The notes beneath the pieces were generated by a model. It did no database searches, was not told the DNA's origin, and worked only from the letters and a program-made list of their open reading frames with translations. A program made the translations under genes and the position numbers. DNA of 64,000 bases from a virus: positions 1-64,000 of IMG/VR virus record IMGVR_UViG_3300017593_000402. One strand, written 5' to 3'. The number at the start of each line of letters is the position of its first letter. The first letter of the stretch is position 1. Shown piece after piece: positions 18,409-55,638 of the stretch.

Positions 18409-21400
18409 ATGGAGTTGCATACACACATTCTTGAGTATTGCCGTGCCTGTCCTCTATATCGGAATTCCCTTAGGTTTGTTCCTCCGGAAGGGAGTGTTCA
18501 CGCACCTATTTGTATAGTTGGGCAGAGCCCGGGTATTAATGAGTTCTTTGAAGGAAGGCCGTTTGTTGGAAAGTCAGGAGAAGAGATAGCCAAGTTTCTC
18601 ATTCCTATCCTTGGTACTAGACCTCCAACCTTTGATAAGTTTTTAGAAACCCGTGGAGAACATTTATACATTACTAATGCTTGTGTTTGTGAGGTCTTAA
18701 CTCCTGTTCCTAAAGTGAAGAGGACTTTCTGTTATGACAGACTTCATACGGAACTTCGACGCATTTCCCCAAGATTGATCGTTACATTTGGTGGACAAGC
18801 TCTTGAGTATGTAACTAGAGGTGAGCTTACTTCTATTCTGTCCGCTAGGGGGTTCCTACTCCGTACTGAAGTAGGACCTGTGTTACCCACAATTCATCCG
18901 GCGGGTGTAATGAGACAGCCCGAGCTTCGATGGCTGTTCGAGGCTGATATGAGAAAGTTGGCCAGAATTGTTGAAGGGGCTTACTCAGAACCTTCTCCGT
19001 TGATTTTCCAGATCAATACCCTTGGAGCACTTGAGGAGTTGACAAGGTTGGTAGAGTCACTCCCAGAAGACACACTGATGTCATTCGATTTGGAGACGAC
19101 CGATACGAACCCGTTTAGATCGTCGATCATTTGTCTCTCCCTCTCTTTTGAAGATTGGGTTGGGTATACTATTCCAATGGATGACCCGATTGTTGTTCCT
19201 TACATCAAGCGTATTCTTGCGTCTCGATGCCGTAAAGTGGCCCAGAATTGCAAGTTTGACCTCCGGTTCCTGAAGAGGAACGGGTTCTGTGTAACTAACA
19301 TGTACTTCGATACCATGATTGCTCAGCACGTGTTGAACGAGAACCTCCCTGCTGACTTGAATACGCTTATTACACTGTATTTGGATTACCCAAAGTACGA
19401 CCGAGAGTTAGAGAAGTTCAAGAAGGAGCATAAGATTAAGTCATATGCAGAAATTCCGCAAGAAATATTGTTCAAGTACGCAACTCATGACGCCATTGTG
19501 ACAAGGATGATTGCCCTAAAGCAAATTGAGGAAATACGAGAGAAAGGGTACGAGGAGCTGTACTGGAAAGTTGAGTTCCCGGTACAACTCGCTTTGGTCG
19601 ATGTTGAATTAACAGGGATCCTTGTTGATAAGAAACGAGTAGACGAATTAACGAAGCGTGTGGTGTCCGAGATTCAACAGAACGAACAACAGCTTTTTCA
19701 AGCAGTGGGTTATGAGTTCAATTACAAATCTTTTAAACAGTTGACTAAGGCGTTGTATACTGATTTGAAGTTTCCTATAGTGAAGAGGTCCCCGACAGGA
19801 AACGCATCGGCTGATGAGGGAACCTTACAGAAGCTGAAGTCTAAAGTAGGCTCTGATCCCAAGAAGTCCGCTGTAATTACTTCGTTGCTCAAACTCAGAG
19901 CCCGTCAAAAGTTACTCTCTACTTACCTTTCTGGAGGTAAAGGAGGGATTTGGAAGTTTGTTGAAAATGATGGGAGAGTACACCCAGATTTTAAAGTTAC
20001 CGGTACTGTGACCGGTAGATTAAGTGCTGCAGACCCTCCTATTCAGACAATTCCTAAATCCGCAGTTAGATCTATTTTCACTGTACCTAAGGGGTACAAG
20101 TTCATAGAGGCAGATTTGAACAGTGCTGAATTGTATGCTCTCGCGTGGTATGCAAGGTGTAAGACCATGCTCGACCAGTTAAACTCGGGTGAAGATTTTC
20201 ATATTCAAACGGCAGAGCGGATATTTAAGAAAAAGGTTAAGAAAGGAGATATTGAACGGAAACTGGCAAAGTTTGCCGTTTATGGTATCAGCTACGGCCG
20301 CGGGGCGCGTAGCATGGCTGATCAGTTCAAGCTTTCACTAGAAGAGGCACAAAGAATCGTTGACTCGTTGTTTGAAGCCTATCCTGAGATTCCAACGTTT
20401 TTGGACTACGCCGTACAAACCGCTCGGGAGCAGCGAGAACTTCGAAATGTTTTTGGAAGGACGCGCATCTTTCCTCGAGATTGTGCGTTTATGCCTGTGT
20501 GGGAAAGACAAGCCCTGAATTTTCTTCCGCAATGCGTGTGTAAGGGTTCTCTTGTTCTAACAGAGTATGGTTACATACCGGTTGAAGAGTGTGACGGAGT
20601 TAGAGTTTTTGACAGCAAGGAGTTCACTCCTGCCGTTCTACAAGGACCTCGTTGGAAGGAAGAAGTAGAGATTACTACTTCTTTTGGACCACCACTATAC
20701 GCAAGCGGCGATCATCGCGTGTTAGTACTAACAAAGGACGGGATTCAAGAACGGTTTGTCCGAGATTTGCAAAAAGGGGAGCTGTTAGTAGTTCCTGAGG
20801 TGAATACCCTGAATAATAAATTGAAGGAGCTAGAAGATTCATTTTTGCCTAAAGTTAATACTGTGAAAGGGAATGTTTCTTTTTATAAACCTGTTCTAGT
20901 AAAGAGAGACGCGCTTCCTAAGATCAGAAAGAGAGGTTTGAAAGGAGGGTCTCCGCTTCCTGAAACGGCTTACTTGTACCTTTCTAAGGTTTTCCGACAT
21001 CTACCTTCTCGAGGCCTTTCTGAGACAGAACAAGTTCAACTTCGTAGACTGATACAGGAGAAGAGTTTATCATATGACCATGCTCGAGAGTTGTATACAA
21101 GGTTTAGGTCTCTGTTTAGTCCCGAGGAACGAAACGAACTCGATCTTTTCTTCAAGTCCACCTTTTTCGAAGTTACTCAAGTTAGGAGTACAGGCCGGGT
21201 TGTAGAGATGTACGATTTAACCGTACAAGGCCCGCGACCCTACTACGTGTGCCAAGGTTATTTGGTTCATAATAGTACTGTCGCAGATCATACTAATCAG
21301 ACGCTTTGGATGCTCCAAATGATTTTTAACGAACGCGGGCTAGATGCGAGAGTGATAATCCAACTTCATGATGCTATAATGGTGGAAGTTCATGAGAGTG

Positions 21401-21531
21401 TTTTGGATGAAGTTGTTGGTTTAATTCAGGAGTTGTACACGCGCCCTGTGGCTAATACAGATTTAGTGATCCCGGTTGAAATTGAAGTTGGGGATTGTTG
21501 GAAAGGAGGTGATCATTTGTTTGAAGAGTAG
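18409..21531 (+). CDS. UDG family 4-like domain fused to PolA DNA polymerase, with intein
   Basis: This is the replicative polymerase, 1040 residues in precursor form and about 793 after splicing. Residues 1-190 are a family-4 uracil-DNA glycosylase-like domain (CRACPLYRN, GQSPGINEFFEGRPFVGKSG, TIHPAGVMR). Next is the 3'-5' exonuclease with D227-L-E229, then the family A core: motif A EADLNSAELY, motif B KLAKFAVYGISYG, motif C LHDA (HDE is usual). Residues 709-955 are an intein placed just after NFLPQ in the fingers/palm region. The start follows GAGGAGG. UDG-like/PolA fusions are known in some other phages. Confidence 0.9.
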   Translation: MELHTHILEYCRACPLYRNSLRFVPPEGSVHAPICIVGQSPGINEFFEGRPFVGKSGEEIAKFLIPILGTRPPTFDKFLETRGEHLYITNACVCEVLTPVPKVKRTFCYDRLHTELRRISPRLIVTFGGQALEYVTRGELTSILSARGFLLRTEVGPVLPTIHPAGVMRQPELRWLFEADMRKLARIVEGAYSEPSPLIFQINTLGALEELTRLVESLPEDTLMSFDLETTDTNPFRSSIICLSLSFEDWVGYTIPMDDPIVVPYIKRILASRCRKVAQNCKFDLRFLKRNGFCVTNMYFDTMIAQHVLNENLPADLNTLITLYLDYPKYDRELEKFKKEHKIKSYAEIPQEILFKYATHDAIVTRMIALKQIEEIREKGYEELYWKVEFPVQLALVDVELTGILVDKKRVDELTKRVVSEIQQNEQQLFQAVGYEFNYKSFKQLTKALYTDLKFPIVKRSPTGNASADEGTLQKLKSKVGSDPKKSAVITSLLKLRARQKLLSTYLSGGKGGIWKFVENDGRVHPDFKVTGTVTGRLSAADPPIQTIPKSAVRSIFTVPKGYKFIEADLNSAELYALAWYARCKTMLDQLNSGEDFHIQTAERIFKKKVKKGDIERKLAKFAVYGISYGRGARSMADQFKLSLEEAQRIVDSLFEAYPEIPTFLDYAVQTAREQRELRNVFGRTRIFPRDCAFMPVWERQALNFLPQCVCKGSLVLTEYGYIPVEECDGVRVFDSKEFTPAVLQGPRWKEEVEITTSFGPPLYASGDHRVLVLTKDGIQERFVRDLQKGELLVVPEVNTLNNKLKELEDSFLPKVNTVKGNVSFYKPVLVKRDALPKIRKRGLKGGSPLPETAYLYLSKVFRHLPSRGLSETEQVQLRRLIQEKSLSYDHARELYTRFRSLFSPEERNELDLFFKSTFFEVTQVRSTGRVVEMYDLTVQGPRPYYVCQGYLVHNSTVADHTNQTLWMLQMIFNERGLDARVIIQLHDAIMVEVHESVLDEVVGLIQELYTRPVANTDLVIPVEIEVGDCWKGGDHLFEE
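20533..21273 (+). other. Intein in DNA polymerase (247 residues)
   Basis: The N-terminal splice residue is C709 (CVCKGSLVLTEYGYIPVEEC), block B is GDHRVLV, and the C-terminal blocks are YDLTVQGPRPYYV and GYLVHN, with +1 residue S956. Removing it joins NFLPQ to STVADHTNQT, restoring the polymerase sequence. About 120 residues between the splicing halves show no LAGLIDADG motif, so a homing endonuclease is lost or unrecognisable. It is not obviously related to the other two inteins. Confidence 0.85.
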
Positions 21532-32135: not shown

Positions 32136-32463
32136 TTGTGATGAGTTCCTTATTTCTAGTAAGGGCAAACTTAGGGAATTCGTATTCGAACTTTGTGATA
32201 TTCTTGATGTGAAAAGGTACGGTGACCCTATAATTGAGTGGTTTGGTAACGGCCCTTCTGAAGGATACACTCTTGTTCAGTTAATAGAGACGTCTCTGGT
32301 ATCAGGACATTTTGCTCCTTCTAGCCGGACTGCTTACATTGATGTGTTTAGTTGTAAATTTTTTGACCCGATTAAGGTTCAGGAGTACATTGGAGGTTTC
32401 TTTAAAGCTAAGAAGGTTGATTCTACCCTTCTTGAAAGGGGGTCGAAGTTACGTGAAGTATAA
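32086..32463 (+). CDS. AdoMet decarboxylase-like paralogue
   Basis: This 125-residue protein shares the fold pattern of its neighbour: LHLILDLYDCD, GYTLVQLIETSLVSGHF, AYIDVFSCKFFD. The Glu-Ser cleavage pair is replaced by E68-T69-S70, while a His (H75) and Cys (C90) are kept. It may be a decarboxylase with changed substrate, or a regulatory partner of SpeD. It overlaps speD and the MBL gene on both sides. ATG 32092 is an alternative start. Confidence 0.75.
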   Translation: MYMIADWGLHLILDLYDCDEFLISSKGKLREFVFELCDILDVKRYGDPIIEWFGNGPSEGYTLVQLIETSLVSGHFAPSSRTAYIDVFSCKFFDPIKVQEYIGGFFKAKKVDSTLLERGSKLREV

Positions 32464-33652
32464 GATAACATTTCTGGGTTCTAAGGGTATGATTGAGGAA
32501 AGTTCCCCTCATCACAAACTGAGAACAGGTATTGTAGTCGAGACTCGCAGAGCGCGTTTCCAAATTGACTGTGGTGAAGAGGAGTTCTTTGATAACCTTA
32601 AGGACGTGGATTTTTTGTATGTAAGTCATTGTTATGATGAGAAGACTGAAGTTTTTACTAATCGTGGCTGGAAGAGGTTTACTGAGTTAAGTAGTTCGGA
32701 TTACGTCGCGACATTGGATGAGGACGATCGATTAGTGTTTGAGAAGCCTATAGATTATATTGAGCAAGATTACACTGGGTTAATGTATTACTTGAGTACG
32801 GATTTTTTGAATATGATGGTGACTCCTAATCACAATTTGTATATTTCGGAGAACTTTGATGACCCTTCCTTTTCTCTTATCCCTGCCGCGAGGTGTTTTG
32901 GGCGCCCTAAGATGTTTACGTGCTCTTTTAAATGTGAACAACACGATACTTCTCTGGCACAAGCAGTTTTTTCTGACAGTCGTTCCTCTACCGCTAAGTC
33001 AGTAACCTCCGGTAGTCAAGAGTCCTGGGTTCCTTACGACGGGAAAGTTTACTGTGTTACTTTACCCGAGTACACTAGGCATATACTGTTGACTCGCCGT
33101 GAGGGTAAAGTGTGCTTTTCCGGGAACTCACACCCAGATCATGTAAGTGGCTTAAAACACAAGGAAATTCCGACGACGTTGGTGTCTACGTCGCTCGTTC
33201 GACGTCAATTAGTCCGTAATTGGAAGGTCACTCCTACTCTTTTTTCTTCACTTCCTTTTGAGTACGAAGATGTGTCGTTAAAAGCTGTTTCTTGTTTTCA
33301 CTCTATTCGATGTCCTATGTGGGGTGTTGTAATAAATAACGAATTGGGTATCTTTACGGATGTTATACGACCACGTGCTGGCTGGGGGATTCTCAAGGGA
33401 CTCCGAGTTTACATTGGTGATGGCTCCGCGATTAACCATCCCATAATCCGCGTTAAGGAAAAGGGAGGAGAACCGTTCGGGCACACTTGTATGAAATCTC
33501 AACTCCGATATGCTTCTCAATTGAATTGGCAAACAGTTGTTTTTACTCATCTTGGCCGCCAGCCTGTTTTGAAAGGTGATGAGAGAGTGAGAGAAATTCT
33601 CGGTGTGGAGGATTTAATTATTGCGAAGGATGGACTTACAATCGAAGTTTGA
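32453..33652 (+). CDS. Metallo-beta-lactamase-fold hydrolase split by an intein
   Basis: The precursor has 399 residues, about 233 after splicing. The N-terminal TGIVVETRRARFQIDCGE and YVSH join after splicing to SHPDHVSGL, forming the HxHxDH zinc motif. GIFTDVIRPR, IGDGSAI and VFTHLGR follow, as in PhnP/RNase Z-like phosphodiesterases. It starts at GTG 32453, overlapping the decarboxylase-like gene by 11 bp. The substrate is unknown; the cluster suggests a small nucleotide or phosphoester. Confidence 0.85.
   Translation: MKYKITFLGSKGMIEESSPHHKLRTGIVVETRRARFQIDCGEEEFFDNLKDVDFLYVSHCYDEKTEVFTNRGWKRFTELSSSDYVATLDEDDRLVFEKPIDYIEQDYTGLMYYLSTDFLNMMVTPNHNLYISENFDDPSFSLIPAARCFGRPKMFTCSFKCEQHDTSLAQAVFSDSRSSTAKSVTSGSQESWVPYDGKVYCVTLPEYTRHILLTRREGKVCFSGNSHPDHVSGLKHKEIPTTLVSTSLVRRQLVRNWKVTPTLFSSLPFEYEDVSLKAVSCFHSIRCPMWGVVINNELGIFTDVIRPRAGWGILKGLRVYIGDGSAINHPIIRVKEKGGEPFGHTCMKSQLRYASQLNWQTVVFTHLGRQPVLKGDERVREILGVEDLIIAKDGLTIEV
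32630..33127 (+). other. Mini-intein inside the MBL metal-binding motif (166 residues)
   Basis: Splice residues are C60 (CYDEKTEVFTNRGWKRF) and N225 (GKVCFSGN), with +1 Ser226. Block B is VTPNHNLYI and block F is YDGKVYCVTLPEY. It lacks an endonuclease. It sits between the first His and the second His of HxHxDH, so the enzyme cannot form its zinc site until splicing. It closely resembles the intein in the portal gene. Confidence 0.92.
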
Positions 33653-39212: not shown

Positions 39213-42200
39213 GTGGAGAGACAACTTGAGAAGAAGGAGAAGGAACAACAGGTTAAGGAGCGATTAGTTGGAGAGACTTCGATCACTGCAGGAACTTTCG
39301 CAAGTTTGGTTACTTCTCTTTCCGCCTCGCAACTCCGTCAAATCTATAAAGAGACTAATGTTGTGAGGCGGTGTGTTGACCATATTGCGAGTTCTGTTGC
39401 GGACCTTCCGCGAGAGTATGATGTAAAGTTTGGTTTGAAGAAAAGTGAAGTAATCGATCTTATTTTTGTGCGCGAGACTATAACTGGAGAGACTTTTCGA
39501 GATGTGTTAATCGCTTTGACAGTGGATTTGTTGGTGTTGAACAAAGGTGTGTTAGTACCTTTGAAGACATTTGGCGGAAGGTTAACCGGATTTACGGCAC
39601 GCGATGCAGCCACTTTTTCTCCAGTGTATGAGAAAGACGGCAGGCTTCGTGGGTTCATTCAACAAGTCGGCTTGGGTAAGGTGTATAAGTTTCGCCCAGA
39701 TGAGTTAGTGTACATTCAACTTATTCCTAAAACTTACACTGCTACTGGAGGGTCTATCTTAGAGTCTCTTACTTATGAAGTTACGAGCTTGTTAAAGAAC
39801 TTAGTGAAAAGCGATCCTGAATCTAGGAAGCCTATCGGGACATTTATTTTTCCGGAGAGTTTGGACGAGGCAGTTGTTAATAGGTTTCAAGAGGACTTAA
39901 CCTCGTTAGTATCTGGAGGTAAAGTGAAAATCCCCGTGGTATGGGGCGCTGGTAAAGGGGAGTGGATCGAGTTGGTTAAACAATTTGACATTCAGATGGT
40001 TGCTACGTTCTTGGATCGCTTAGATTGGCTAGTTCGGAGCGCTTTTGGATTTGTGCCTCCTGGAAGTAGTTTACTTCAGTCACGACCTAACGAAGATTTG
40101 ATGTATTCTACCTTAGTCCCTGTGGTTGCTCGGGCGATCCAGAATCGACTGAATCGGTTTCTTAAACCTTATGGAGTTACTTTTAGTTTTAAGATTCCTC
40201 CTGCACACTCGTTGCAACGTATTATTGAAGGGACTAAGTCAGGGTTGATCTCACCTAATGAGGCCCGTCAGTTTATGTACTTACCACCGGTTAAAGGCGG
40301 CGATCAGTTGTCAGTTATGCAGCCTCAAGGTTTAACTCCTGTAGGGAAGAGTGGGCAACAATCTCCTGTGGTACCTCTCTCGGACGCTAAACAAGATACA
40401 GATATTACTCGCTCGCTTTCTATAGAAGAAGTGAAACAGCTTAGGAATCTCTCTCTTTTGTCCGATGAGAAGGTAGCACGGTTTGTTCTTAGGAGAATTA
40501 AGTTGCTGAAATCGATGCAAGAGGAGTTAAGAGAGGCAGTTCTGGATTATCGTTCTTCTTTTGAAGAGAAGGTGATGTTGCGTCAGGATACCCCTGCTTT
40601 ACCTTCTTATGTGCCTTTCTTACTACGAGTAGAAGGGATCATTGATAATTATGAGGCCCAGTCGATTGCGCTGGGTTATGAACGCGTGCTCCAGTTTTGG
40701 AACAGACGCGAGTTCGATAAGGATCTGATTGACGCTGAGATTGCTGAACACGATCGACGACTTCGTCGAGAGTCTATTCGGAGTTGGAAAGAGCGTTTAG
40801 ATTCTATTCACAATGAAGCAAAAAGAGGTGAGTGGGATCAAGTTAAAAAAGATCTTGACAATTTTATACGCGCGATTATTGCCGCCGCAGGGTTTGTCAC
40901 TTTGTTTGCGAATCTCCCTCTTGTACTTGTGTCTAAGTTTTTTGAGGAGACACAAGGAGTGCTCTTACGCTGGGTGGGCATATCTGATGATGTTACATGT
41001 TATGATGAAGCAACTAAAGTGTTGACGGATCGGGGGTGGAAGTTCTTTAAGGATTTGGATGGTACGGAGAGGTTGTTGAGTATTAACCCTGATGATTTGA
41101 CTCAGGTTGAGTGGCTTAAACCTGTTGCCTATCAGACGTTTGAGTACGATGGTGAGATGATTCATTTCGAGGGCTATCAAACGGATCTACTCGTGACACC
41201 TGATCATCAGTGTTTTGTGTATGATAATGGAAGACTTCGGAAAGTTCGCGCAGGAGAGCTGACTCAATTTGCGAAGGTTTCTTTCTACCATGGTGTTCCC
41301 GTCGATGTTGCTGACGTGTCTAGTATTTCCTGTAGTGAAGCAGAAGTTCGCCTTTCTTACTACAAGGGGAAGGTCTACGACGTGACTCTTCCTAAATGGC
41401 ACACTCTTTACATCATGCGCAATGGGAAGTGTATGTGGAGTGGTAATTGCGAAGACTGTGCAGCTCTTCAAGGGCGCGTTTTTAAACCATCCACGCTTGA
41501 ACTGCTTCAAACTTGGCCCGGTTATGGTGTGCGTTGTGGCCATAACTGTAGGTGTGCCCTTGAACCTGTTTCTAATATTACGCAAGCAAGTGTTAACGAG
41601 TGGATCGGTAAAGTTATCAAGTTTAGGAATTTGCACGTCCCTCTAAAGGAAGCAGCGCTTGTTTATTCTGACGTAATCGAACATATCGATAAGAAGATCG
41701 CAGAAGCTCTCAAAAAGAACCCTCACTTACGGGAGCCTTCGTACGTTGCTTTATTTAAGGAAATCCGATTGCGCGAGACTTTAACCCAACCTAAATACGA
41801 TGCTATACGAAATATACTCGAAATCCCCGCCTCTTTTACTGAGGAGCAGATTCGTTCAGCTTTTGTCGATGCAGTCGCCCTGAACGTCCTGTTACGTCAG
41901 AACTTTCAGTATCCTAGCTCACCTTTCGTCTCTGAGATAATGTCTATAATGGAGCGGGCCAGGAAAGTGCTTTGGAACGAGCAATTAAGTAAGCTTTTAC
42001 CTTCAGAGTTGAAAGAGTCTTGGTTGGAAGGTGATTTCGCTCCTTTTGAGAAATTGTCACTTAAGCTGTTTGATATTCCAGTTAAGGCTTACTTTGATCC
42101 CAGAGAGTTTTTTACTTACATGTTCCGGGCGTCCATTTTTAGCCCTCATCGAGAGGATATAGTAGGGATGCCCGCTTTTCGAGAACTCCTGGCAACCCAT

Positions 42201-43481
42201 GTGTGGTCCCCAACTACTTATGAGAATTGGCTTAACCGTGTTTATAAGGCCCGTTCCGCCCCTTGGCGGGCCACGTTAACTCCTGATAGAGTACTTACTC
42301 GACTGGAATACGTTGACTCAGAGTTCCGTGATAGATTGGTAGAAATCCTTAAGAGTTATCCGATGTTACGAGTTCCATCTTTTTGGGATGGGTTGAAGGG
42401 AATTAAGTTGTCAGATGTATCTCGCTACGACGCGTCTTATAGTTTGGAGGGGACCTATGATGAGTTTGTGAAGTCCTTTGTTGGTTCTATCTTGACTACG
42501 GGGGATACATTTCAGTTCCTCCACGAGCTAGGCCATCATGTGTTTGAGCGTCATTTTACCGCGCGCTCTACACTAAGAGACGCGTTTGCTTATGTGTACC
42601 GTGAACGAGTTTTGATCCCGTTTTACGAGCAAGTTTTACCTTATTTGACTGAAAAGGAAGCTCAAAAGTTCATGGGGTACATGAACGAGATGCTTGATGC
42701 AAGTGAGAAGAGAACTCTTGGGAGCTTTTTCTTAGGGTCTCGAGACGTATTTAGAGAGGAAATTTTTAAGCCTATTTATCCTAAGTTACAAGAGGTGATG
42801 CGGAACTGGGCACTTCCGATGCGACTGTACTCATTACAGAGCATCGACGAATCCTTTGCCGAGTTGTTTGCCACTTATATACGTAACCCATCGGTGTTGT
42901 ACTTCAGTGACCCCGAGTTGTACTTGTTTATGGAATCGCTCTTGCAGAACCTTGCTGTACGTCCAGAAACTTTGATAAGTAAGCACCCTATGTGGAAACG
43001 TGTTTTTGAGGCCCTTTCACGTATAGGTTTAACACGGAGTCAGATAAAGCAACTTCTTCCGAACCTTCTGTGGGCACATATTAGAGAAGATGTTGGGTTT
43101 GAGGAGTTGATAGCGTTGTTCGAGAGCGCTGCTACTGCAGAGGGCGAAGACTTACGGAAGAAGATAAAAGATATTGTCGAGCGCTTTTTCAAAGCGCCTG
43201 AGAAGAAGAAAATGCCTAGTTCTGAGCCGAAACCCAAAGAGATTAGGAAGCCTCGTAAGGCACCTTCTCTTCCCGAAAAGACTCTAGTAACTCTAAAGGA
43301 TGTGCGCGAAGTTCTTGAGAAGACTTTGAAGCTCGAAGGTAGAGACTTAGAGGTTTTTATGGACAAGATTGTTTCGGTTGTAGCTGAAGGTAAGATGAGT
43401 ATGATTGATGTGTATGAGAAATTGACTTCTTTCAAGACTAAAAAGGAGGCTTTGAAGTGGCTAGCCGGTTTGAAGAAGTAA
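39213..43481 (+). CDS. Portal + MuF + zincin peptidase fusion, with intein
   Basis: This 1422-residue precursor (about 1272 after splicing) begins with an HK97-like portal domain (about 30-350; VRRCVDHIASSVADLPREY, FRPDELVYI). A MuF domain follows (WVGISDDVT joined to CEDCAALQGRVF, then GVRCGHNCRCALEP). The C-terminal half has a zincin: FLHELGHHVF with HELGH at 1104-1108 and E1213 in SIDESFAELFATY. The end is a Lys-rich helical tail. An intein occupies 596-745. Portal-MuF fusions are known; the added peptidase is unusual. It starts at GTG 39213 after GAGGAGG. Confidence 0.88.
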   Translation: MERQLEKKEKEQQVKERLVGETSITAGTFASLVTSLSASQLRQIYKETNVVRRCVDHIASSVADLPREYDVKFGLKKSEVIDLIFVRETITGETFRDVLIALTVDLLVLNKGVLVPLKTFGGRLTGFTARDAATFSPVYEKDGRLRGFIQQVGLGKVYKFRPDELVYIQLIPKTYTATGGSILESLTYEVTSLLKNLVKSDPESRKPIGTFIFPESLDEAVVNRFQEDLTSLVSGGKVKIPVVWGAGKGEWIELVKQFDIQMVATFLDRLDWLVRSAFGFVPPGSSLLQSRPNEDLMYSTLVPVVARAIQNRLNRFLKPYGVTFSFKIPPAHSLQRIIEGTKSGLISPNEARQFMYLPPVKGGDQLSVMQPQGLTPVGKSGQQSPVVPLSDAKQDTDITRSLSIEEVKQLRNLSLLSDEKVARFVLRRIKLLKSMQEELREAVLDYRSSFEEKVMLRQDTPALPSYVPFLLRVEGIIDNYEAQSIALGYERVLQFWNRREFDKDLIDAEIAEHDRRLRRESIRSWKERLDSIHNEAKRGEWDQVKKDLDNFIRAIIAAAGFVTLFANLPLVLVSKFFEETQGVLLRWVGISDDVTCYDEATKVLTDRGWKFFKDLDGTERLLSINPDDLTQVEWLKPVAYQTFEYDGEMIHFEGYQTDLLVTPDHQCFVYDNGRLRKVRAGELTQFAKVSFYHGVPVDVADVSSISCSEAEVRLSYYKGKVYDVTLPKWHTLYIMRNGKCMWSGNCEDCAALQGRVFKPSTLELLQTWPGYGVRCGHNCRCALEPVSNITQASVNEWIGKVIKFRNLHVPLKEAALVYSDVIEHIDKKIAEALKKNPHLREPSYVALFKEIRLRETLTQPKYDAIRNILEIPASFTEEQIRSAFVDAVALNVLLRQNFQYPSSPFVSEIMSIMERARKVLWNEQLSKLLPSELKESWLEGDFAPFEKLSLKLFDIPVKAYFDPREFFTYMFRASIFSPHREDIVGMPAFRELLATHVWSPTTYENWLNRVYKARSAPWRATLTPDRVLTRLEYVDSEFRDRLVEILKSYPMLRVPSFWDGLKGIKLSDVSRYDASYSLEGTYDEFVKSFVGSILTTGDTFQFLHELGHHVFERHFTARSTLRDAFAYVYRERVLIPFYEQVLPYLTEKEAQKFMGYMNEMLDASEKRTLGSFFLGSRDVFREEIFKPIYPKLQEVMRNWALPMRLYSLQSIDESFAELFATYIRNPSVLYFSDPELYLFMESLLQNLAVRPETLISKHPMWKRVFEALSRIGLTRSQIKQLLPNLLWAHIREDVGFEELIALFESAATAEGEDLRKKIKDIVERFFKAPEKKKMPSSEPKPKEIRKPRKAPSLPEKTLVTLKDVREVLEKTLKLEGRDLEVFMDKIVSVVAEGKMSMIDVYEKLTSFKTKKEALKWLAGLKK
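40998..41447 (+). other. Mini-intein in the MuF motif of the portal fusion (150 residues)
   Basis: Splice residues are C596 (CYDEATKVLTDRGWKFF) and N745 (CMWSGN), +1 Cys746. Block B is VTPDHQCFV, block F is YYKGKVYDVTLPKWHTLYI. No endonuclease is present. It separates the MuF CxxC pair from its upstream ISDDVT. N- and C-blocks match the MBL intein closely, so one is derived from the other or both share a recent source. Confidence 0.92.
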
Positions 43482-53849: not shown

Positions 53850-53900
53850 TGAGTTAGGTTGTTGAGGTACACACTTAATTTGAGGAGGTGAGAATTGTAA

Positions 53901-53945
53901 ATGAACACACCAACTTATAACACCAAAAGATTGAGTTTCGGGCCT
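53901..53945 (+). CDS. Major tail tube protein, exon 1
   Basis: Exon 1 encodes 15 residues (MNTPTYNTKRLSFGP) after GAGGAGG. Unspliced reading ends at TGA one codon later. Joined to exon 2 at 55135 it gives a 182-residue protein that continues GVLYIGSAGQ. The U at 53945 is the splice-site U pairing with G in P1. Confidence 0.88.
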
Positions 53946-55134
53946 AAGTGACACTGGGCCCGTAAAACCTCTGCTGATCAACGGGGAAACACAATGGTAT
54001 CCACTCAGCTAAATGAGATTTTAGATGGATTAATTTTCAGTGATGGGCATATTGCTTATTGTAAGGCTGGTGACTATAGGTTCGAGTTGGGGACGACCAA
54101 GCGTTTGTACGCAGAGCAAGTTTGTAACCTTCTTCGTCCTGTTATTTCCTGTTCTATTAGAGAACAAGTACGTATTGGATTTGGGAAGAAATTTATCTCT
54201 TACAGAGTTGTTGGATATAAAGCTCCTGTTATGAAGAATCTTCACTATCGTTGGTATGATGATAAAAAGAAAAAGCTTCCCAAAGATTTTAGATGGACGC
54301 CTACTACTTTGAACGTTGCTTATTGTGGTGATGGTACTGTTATTGAGAATAGCCCGACTATGTGCTTAAATAGTTGGGCGGTTCCCGAGGTGAAAGAGAT
54401 AGTTAGGTGCTTTGAAGAGTTGGGCTTGTATGGGACGGTTGTCCAAACCCCAACAGGACCGATTTTTAGGTTACATCAAGATTGTGCCCTAGATTTCTTC
54501 GAGTACATAGGAGACCCACTAATTCCGTTTCACTCTTATAAGTGGATTACCGTTGTCAACCCCCAGCAAGCAGTTCGCGCGACTCTGTGGGACGATGACC
54601 TAGCTCAAAAGGTTGCGAGGTGTATTAAGAAGATTATGATTTTACGCGTTTGGGGAGGTTCGAAGGAACGGCGGTACTTGTCGTACTTTCCTGAGTTAGT
54701 CGTAATGGTTAATGATAAAGACGTTAAAGATGCCCTTCAGAGAATCAGAACTTCAAGGAAGAAAGGTGAGGTTGTAGTTAGAGGTCGACAAGCGAAACGT
54801 GTTTTAGAAAGGGTCCATTTGTTTCTTCCGGACGATAAACGAATGTTAGCTACAATTGCGTTAGCTTTGCCTCTTGGGCGGAGGAAGAAAGATTTGAAGG
54901 AAGTTCTATATCAGTTTTTCTGGACGAAATTTAATGAATTAAATCCGCCCGAGAGAAGACGGGGACCCAAAAGAGAGTTGAATAGCGAACTGCGGCTGCA
55001 GAGACTGAGCGTAGAGGACACTAACCTCTTTCAGGATCTGGTTAGTGTATACGACAGTCCGACCCCTACGGTGACGTAGGGAAGTAGTTGTACTACTTGC
55101 CCGAAAGGGTCAAGAAAAATAACAGGTTAAAGCG
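53946..55134 (+). ncRNA. Group I intron (about 1189 nt) in the tail tube gene
   Basis: It is a self-splicing ribozyme. P1: exon GGGCCT (53940-53945) pairs with GGGCCC (53956-53961), with a U-G pair at the cut. P10: ACACT (53951-53955) pairs with exon-2 GGTGT (55135-55139). The AACGGGGAAAC stretch near 53980 is like that of T-even introns. Near the 3' end come P7 GACTG/CAGTC (55003-55007, 55055-55059), P8 with 9-bp arms (55018-55026, 55040-55048), P9 CCCTACG-GTGA-CGTAGGG (55064-55081), a further 7-bp hairpin, and CCC-GAAA-GGG. The last intron base is G55134. Confidence 0.92.
53994..55079 (+). CDS. LAGLIDADG homing endonuclease inside the intron
   Basis: This 361-residue protein has a first LAGLIDADG motif LDGLIFSDGHI (9-19) and a second, weaker one near LNVAYCGDGTV, with HYRWYDDKKKKLP between them. 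A C-terminal 150-residue region is rich in Arg and Lys. It drives intron homing by cutting intronless alleles. Its last 25 codons overlap the P7-P3-P8-P9 core of the ribozyme, and its start overlaps the P4-P5 region. Confidence 0.85.
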   Translation: MVSTQLNEILDGLIFSDGHIAYCKAGDYRFELGTTKRLYAEQVCNLLRPVISCSIREQVRIGFGKKFISYRVVGYKAPVMKNLHYRWYDDKKKKLPKDFRWTPTTLNVAYCGDGTVIENSPTMCLNSWAVPEVKEIVRCFEELGLYGTVVQTPTGPIFRLHQDCALDFFEYIGDPLIPFHSYKWITVVNPQQAVRATLWDDDLAQKVARCIKKIMILRVWGGSKERRYLSYFPELVVMVNDKDVKDALQRIRTSRKKGEVVVRGRQAKRVLERVHLFLPDDKRMLATIALALPLGRRKKDLKEVLYQFFWTKFNELNPPERRRGPKRELNSELRLQRLSVEDTNLFQDLVSVYDSPTPTVT

Positions 55135-55638
55135 GGTGTGCTTTATATTGGAAGCGCCGGCCAAACACCTACTATTGATATAGGCGCTGTTAAGACTGGA
55201 GCAACTCTAACATTTACTCGAGATAAACTCGAGGTTAAACAGGGTTCTCCCGAGAAGTTGATCAAACAGTGGGTTGTTACTGAGACAGTTAAACTAGATG
55301 TTGTTGGTCATGAATGGAATCTTGAGAATTTGAGGTATGCTATTGGTTGTGGTATCATTCAAACTTCGGGAAATGAGAAGACGATGGATTTCGGCGGAGA
55401 TATGGAAGTTACTGAAGCGTCGCTGAAGTTCGTTCACCAGATGCCTGCTGGAGGAACTGTGGAAATTGATATTTGGAGAGCTCAGTCCGCAGGAGAACTC
55501 TCGATCGAGTTTGGGAACGATCCACACGAATTCCCTTACTCGTTCGTTGCTCTGGATGCCGATACTGCTTGGGATGGCACTACCTTGGATGAGAGGGGAA
55601 GGTTGTGCCGAATTAGGTTAATCGGTGACTTCTCCTAA
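55135..55638 (+). CDS. Major tail tube protein, exon 2
   Basis: Exon 2 encodes GVLYIGSAGQTPTIDIGAV through DFS (167 residues). There is no start codon and no ribosome binding site at its beginning; GTG 55138 lies inside an exon codon run. Its beta-sandwich pattern (ATLTFTRDKLEVKQGSP, VVTETVKLDVVGHEWNL) is that of siphovirus tail tube proteins. Confidence 0.85.
   Translation, partial: GVLYIGSAGQTPTIDIGAVKTGATLTFTRDKLEVKQGSPEKLIKQWVVTETVKLDVVGHEWNLENLRYAIGCGIIQTSGNEKTMDFGGDMEVTEASLKFVHQMPAGGTVEIDIWRAQSAGELSIEFGNDPHEFPYSFVALDADTAWDGTTLDERGRLCRIRLIGDFS

Follow-up and report, generated by a model that had tools for sequence, protein, structure and literature searches.

The tail-tube gene orf142 of the Staphylococcus phage Twort has several introns. 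These are group I introns, for which exon skipping has been described (PMC11878797). Introns also occur in the tail-tube genes of kayvirus 812 (orf103) and four other kayviruses, and those of orf103 adjoin an intron-endonuclease gene and were lost in host-range mutants (PMC6445280). The set of phage introns treated together with those of Twort further includes the group I intron in the DNA-polymerase gene of Bacillus phage phiNIT1, which contains a LAGLIDADG ORF of family phrog_11023 (PMC11878797).

In the stretch of DNA analyzed here (hereafter the window: 64,000 nucleotides, positions 1 to 64,000 of the IMG/VR virus record IMGVR_UViG_3300017593_000402), the tail-tube gene very probably carries a mobile group I intron that separates codon 15 from codon 16. 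The affected gene is the same as in Twort, a Gram-positive myovirus, but Twort has several introns in it and the window phage a single one, in which a LAGLIDADG ORF is found. As in kayvirus 812, an endonuclease gene is found with the tail-tube intron; however, the kayvirus introns are described as non-coding, with the nuclease in an adjacent gene, and the ORF in the window is embedded in the intron. Our searches detected no sequence relation between the window intron and those of Twort or the kayviruses. The phiNIT1 intron shares with it the family of its endonuclease (25% identity), an equally poor Rfam score and, judging by eye, an apparent location of the LAGLIDADG ORF in loop L5, but it lies in a different host gene, its LAGLIDADG ORF does not extend beyond the loop, and a separate nuclease ORF is found farther downstream. 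In phiNIT1 (L035:1295-3065) the LAGLIDADG ORF and this second nuclease ORF both precede the next group I P7-like element, and the stretch that interrupts the polymerase gene may be a single intron containing both. Introns in tail-tube genes had been described before, and the window phage is a further example; a preliminary description of the locus had called them rare, which is fair, but with Twort orf142 and the kayviruses as precedents they are not unprecedented.

The position of the intron (see the table) follows from intron-free relatives. When IMG/VR was scanned with the joined protein, intron-bearing as well as intron-free alleles were recovered. Six distinct intron-free alleles have an uninterrupted gene, with identities of 77% (L005), 65% (L007, identical to L008), 56% (L027), 44% (L028), 45% (L029) and 44% (L030); in all of them exon 1 abuts exon 2 with nothing in between, and the protein reads SFGPG(V/I) across the junction, i.e., FGP/G(V/I). 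Because these relatives read straight across, exon 1 joins exon 2, and the product of joining 53945 to 55135 is 45 + 504 nt, or 182 codons plus a stop. Exon 1 is directly followed by AAG UGA (the in-frame UGA being 53949-53951), and the downstream open frame (55138-55638, beginning with GTG) has no Shine-Dalgarno sequence. None of the six relatives begins at the equivalent of GTG 55138; all start at the exon-1 position. Equivalent AGGAGG sites precede the ATG of L005 and L007, the two relatives in which the neighbouring gene order was checked and found to be the same. With the spliced junction sequence as query, no copy of this phage lacking the intron was found. The preliminary description had reported a downstream frame without a start signal, an upstream 15-codon piece with a strong ribosome binding site, and a 182-residue protein restored by this join, and each of these statements holds; its reading of the locus as a tail-tube gene split at these junctions by a group I intron is the best-supported one.

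Table. Features of the split tail-tube gene and its intron; helices P3 to P9.2 are those of the predicted core, and positions are those of the window
Feature	Position	Strand	Pairing partner or basis
Shine-Dalgarno of tail-tube gene, AGGAGGTG	53883..53890	+	direct reading; strong site
Exon 1, codons 1-15, MNTPTYNTKRLSFGP, ATG 53901	53901..53945	+	aligns with N-termini of uninterrupted homologues
P1 exon strand, GGGCCU	53940..53945	+	guide GGGCCC, 53956-53961
Group I intron (very probable), 1189 nt, AAGUGA at start, omega-G at end	53946..55134	+	homologues, P1/P10, core, folding
P10 intron strand, ACACU	53951..53955	+	3' exon GGUGU, 55135-55139, 5 bp; adjoins guide
P3 5' strand, CCUCUGCU	53968..53975	+	3' strand AGCGUAGAGG, 55008-55017, 2-nt bulge
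P4 5' strand, GGGG	53983..53986	+	3' strand CCCC, 54560-54563; also in unconstrained minimum-energy fold of trimmed RNA
P5 5' strand, ACAAUGGU	53991..53998	+	3' strand ACCGUUGU, 54549-54556
Intron ORF, 361 aa	53994..55079	+	residues 1-187 I-SceI-like LAGLIDADG; ~188-361 extension
P6 5' strand, CAGC	54564-54567	+	GCUG, 54995-54998
P6a 5' strand, GCAGUUCGC	54570-54578	+	GCGAACUGC, 54985-54993, 9 bp
P7 5' strand, R-like GAGACUG, bulged A 55002	55001..55007	+	3' strand CAGUCC, 55055-55060
P8 hairpin, 9 bp, ACACUAACC/GGUUAGUGU	55018..55048	+	J8/7 AUACGA, 55049-55054
P9 (GUGA tetraloop), P9.1, P9.2 (GAAA tetraloop)	55064..55110	+	
Exon 2, codons 16-182 and stop of tail-tube protein	55135..55638	+	

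The intron occurs in identical form in L001-L004 from IMG/VR and in L031, which is contig JAGGSE010000232.1 of MAG AUK014 and comes from genome contigs; no diverged copy was found, every copy being identical. AUK most likely refers to the Auka vents (PMC9213671; AUK014 is not named in the main text), and the sequence of this uncultivated phage is thus also present in a MAG set that is most likely from a deep-sea vent metagenome. These copies bear on the possibility that two fragments were misjoined during assembly. The contigs are metagenomic, and a gap of 48 nt at the insert of one relative, L006, is suspicious, but with the same sequence recovered in IMG/VR contigs of two samples and in JAGGSE010000232.1, and with a gene order around the insert that matches intron-free relatives, the probability of such an artefact is close to nil.

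The two helices that would align the splice sites can be placed at the junction set by the intron-free homologues, and they are those, with the U-G pair, that the preliminary description had placed there. P1 consists of 6 bp and includes the splice-site pair U53945-G53956, and the last base of the intron, G55134, is the omega-G. Once homology had set the splice sites, 47 of 20,000 dinucleotide shuffles (0.2%) produced a 6-bp P1 together with a P10 of at least 4 bp.

An intervening element of another kind, i.e., an intein, a group II intron, an archaeal bulge-helix-bulge intron or a translational bypass element, might be suspected in that LAGLIDADG proteins are known from inteins and archaeal introns too, and the window phage has one clear and two probable inteins. 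Yet the insert (1189 nt, which is not divisible by 3) is out of frame and has stops, and is therefore not an intein. Nor does it contain a reverse transcriptase or group II signatures (its ends are AAGUGA...GCG), its splice sites match P1 and P10 instead of a bulge-helix-bulge, and its 1.2 kb is much longer than the known translational bypass gaps. We consider all such elements extremely unlikely.

For the group I intron, a complete core, comprising P1, P10 and P3 to P9.2, can be drawn. The order of its elements (P3-P4-P5-P6-P7-P3'-P8-P7', with a G-binding P7) is canonical in a model drawn post hoc, i.e., fitted with the sequence already in view. P4 has only 4 bp, with AAAC as J4/5 and CAA as J5/4, and the predicted guanosine-site pair in P7 is G55003-C55059. 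As to membership in group IA, P7.1 and P7.2 are absent, and 0 nt separate the P7 5' strand (ending at 55007) from the P3 3' strand (beginning at 55008) in the model. The preliminary description had put P7, P8 and P9 helices with GNRA loops at the 3' end, where the model has them too, with GUGA and GAAA tetraloops; it left P3 to P6 and the 361-aa endonuclease ORF unmentioned.

A first, loose descriptor of the core was discarded as evidence: it matched 59% of shuffles, fitted numerous genomic windows too, and failed to detect L006. A strict descriptor, which required fixed distances to both intron ends, the observed score or better and a 9-bp P6a, was matched by none of 6,000 shuffles, and the summed score was reached by 1 of 6,000. 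Folding of a trimmed RNA, in which the interiors of the two coding loops, L5 and L6, were cut out of the intron, yielded -108.4 kcal/mol against an average of -76.0 for shuffles (200 of 200 less stable; z = -6.5), and a version trimmed with natural loop ends gave the same z; these folding tests were not blind, because the trimming points came from the model. The unconstrained minimum-energy fold of the trimmed RNA contains P1, P4, P5, P6, P6a, P7, P8 and P9-P9.2, and each of P7, P8, P9, P9.1 and P9.2 is part of the minimum-energy fold of either 54940-55139 or the trimmed RNA. P3 is absent from such folds because it forms a pseudoknot with P7.

In covariance-model searching, which the preliminary description had proposed as a check, the Rfam model Intron_gpI (RF00028) matched nothing at its gathering score of 50 bits. 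With lax filters and 54940-55081 searched alone, it gave 11.5 bits in the right place and orientation, and the lax search otherwise gave just weak pieces. As a control, the phiNIT1 DNA-polymerase intron, with an endonuclease of the same family, reached 19.2 bits, also below the gathering score. Because a published intron likewise falls under the cut-off, the low score is weak evidence against the intron and not a refutation. The Rfam group I model is known to be incomplete, and large nuclease ORFs fragment its matches (PMC11878797). The same type of search also gave a full-length weak RF00028 match (19 bits, E 1e-3) on the minus strand in a tail-gene region outside the window (G000:C1:66190-66439); such searching gives matches in 8 of 14 control genomes as well, and the match in G000 is probably due to chance. 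A match to an 18-base P7/P3' pattern in a rhizobial-looking contig (L017) was a chance one, with no intron there.

The weak Rfam score could also mean that the gene has been broken, either by insertion of a homing endonuclease or by an intron no longer able to splice, and that a shorter tail tube is made from GTG 55138, from which the downstream ORF is open. Against such a loss of function, the Shine-Dalgarno sequence and exon 1 are intact and still match those of homologues, P1, P10 and the core are complete, the N-terminal codons including the SFGPG motif are present in 6 of 6 distinct homologues, the start at 55138 is without a Shine-Dalgarno sequence, and identical copies occur in other contigs and a MAG contig. 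A broken gene is, on this evidence, very unlikely.

The ORF within the intron starts inside the P5 5' strand, and its first half encodes a LAGLIDADG endonuclease: residues 8-157 match Pfam LAGLIDADG_2 (PF03161; 7.7e-12), residues 2-185 match nearly the whole of phrog_11023 (3.5e-20), both motifs are present with their acidic residues (FSDGH and YCGDG), and the AlphaFold model of residues 1-185 (pLDDT ~90) has I-SceI as its best PDB match (E 8e-12). It shares with I-SceI and LAGLIDADG_2 the two-motif single-chain fold, but adds an unmatched C-terminal extension of ~174 residues that is encoded through the ribozyme core. Because the conserved YKW end of the family falls just 5' of the P5 3' strand, the endonuclease fills L5; the remaining residues are encoded across P5', P4' and P6, occupy L6, and then continue across P7, P3' and P8. 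This frame has no stops, vs. 11-12 in the two other frames of the same strand, and codon usage in the second half of the ORF is as phage-gene-like as in the first. The C-terminal half has no relative beyond the identical copies and no fold (AlphaFold pLDDT < 50), and nothing was found in support of a by-eye suspicion that it is a degenerate second LAGLIDADG domain. According to parts of a review (PMC3984707), ORFs overlapping the group I core are known, and these parts make no mention of a single ORF spanning two loops. We only tentatively suggest that the ORF is a fusion of an L5 endonuclease with an L6 domain, the latter possibly a maturase for vent temperatures; if this somewhat doubtful reading were true, one coding frame would be superimposed on a catalytic RNA.

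In 53983-53996, the start codon of the endonuclease in P5 is preceded by a GGGG resembling a ribosome-binding site, which is itself the P4 strand, so that the folded ribozyme would hide the start of the ORF, and a switch between splicing and endonuclease expression is possible. In another viral contig (L044:224-2642), two phrog_11023 LAGLIDADG genes (5e-47 and 4e-55), related to the endonuclease of the window intron, flank a tail protein gene (phrog_290, 1e-9).

The identification of the split gene as that of the tail tube, also put forward in the preliminary description, is well supported though not certain, with synteny, profile matches and a modest AlphaFold model in agreement. Genes for tail completion, the tail tube, a chaperone of tail assembly (phrog_1442) and the presumed tape measure, so judged by its 2,205 residues and its position, follow one another, which places the gene between head-tail/tail-completion and chaperone/tape-measure genes. 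Profile matches are weak (phrog_885, major tail proteins, and phrog_2175; for L029, NCBIfam tail_tube_6XGR), and the joined protein matched no phage record. The AlphaFold model of the L005 homologue (pLDDT 64) has PDB matches mainly to tail-tube structures; the other four models were poor (pLDDT ~35).

The same gene is interrupted in L006 (4305-5010) by a different group I intron, with an HNH ORF (HNH_3, 5.7e-11) flanked by Intron_gpI matches of 23.8 bits (E 8e-4) and 25.6 bits (E 2e-4). The L006 tail tube is 80% identical to that of the window over residues 28-182, and its exon 1 ends in codon 11, likely at a 5' site, CGCCU, that lies 13 nt upstream of the window's and, judged by eye, pairs with GGGC in P1. 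From the P10 partner, AGCUC, a 3' exon beginning with GAGCU is expected, which the homologous codons would allow; the contig, however, jumps to codon 28, so that about 48 conserved bases (codons 12-27) are missing through either a deletion or an assembly error. Two different introns 13 nt apart suggest that homing elements have repeatedly targeted the N-terminal RLSFGPG stretch, which is conserved in this tail-tube family.

Other parts of the window encode a fusion of DNA polymerase A with an N-terminal uracil-DNA-glycosylase domain that is interrupted by an intein (18409-21531; PF14890, 8e-11), a probable intein in a metallo-beta-lactamase-like protein (32312-33652; Hint, 0.0036) and, by eye, a probable intein in a portal/MuF-like fusion protein (39213-43481). 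Three inteins, two of them probable, and the intron would total four self-splicing elements in one phage.

To the junction, the insertion, the family of the ORF and the modelled core pairings obtained in this analysis, knowledge of the intron family adds the steps by which we infer that the element splices, cleaves and homes. The transcript would fold into a group I ribozyme whose guide GGGCCC holds the end of exon 1 in P1. Exogenous guanosine, bound at G55003-C55059, would cut on the 3' side of U53945; exon 1, once released and positioned by P10, would attack after the omega-G 55134, leaving a continuous mRNA of 182 codons. On unspliced RNA, ribosomes would halt at the UGA just inside the intron and so be kept off the core. 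Alleles lacking the intron would be cleaved by the LAGLIDADG enzyme at the conserved FGP/G site and would acquire a copy of the intron during repair.

The junction revises where a major virion protein begins, a position that an automatic gene caller would likely misplace, and the locus is a case in which a standard Rfam search misses a well-supported intron. Why the group I introns of phages sit almost only in genes of DNA and nucleotide metabolism has been raised as a question (PMC11878797), and the present locus extends the few phage genes known to carry group I introns by a structural one.
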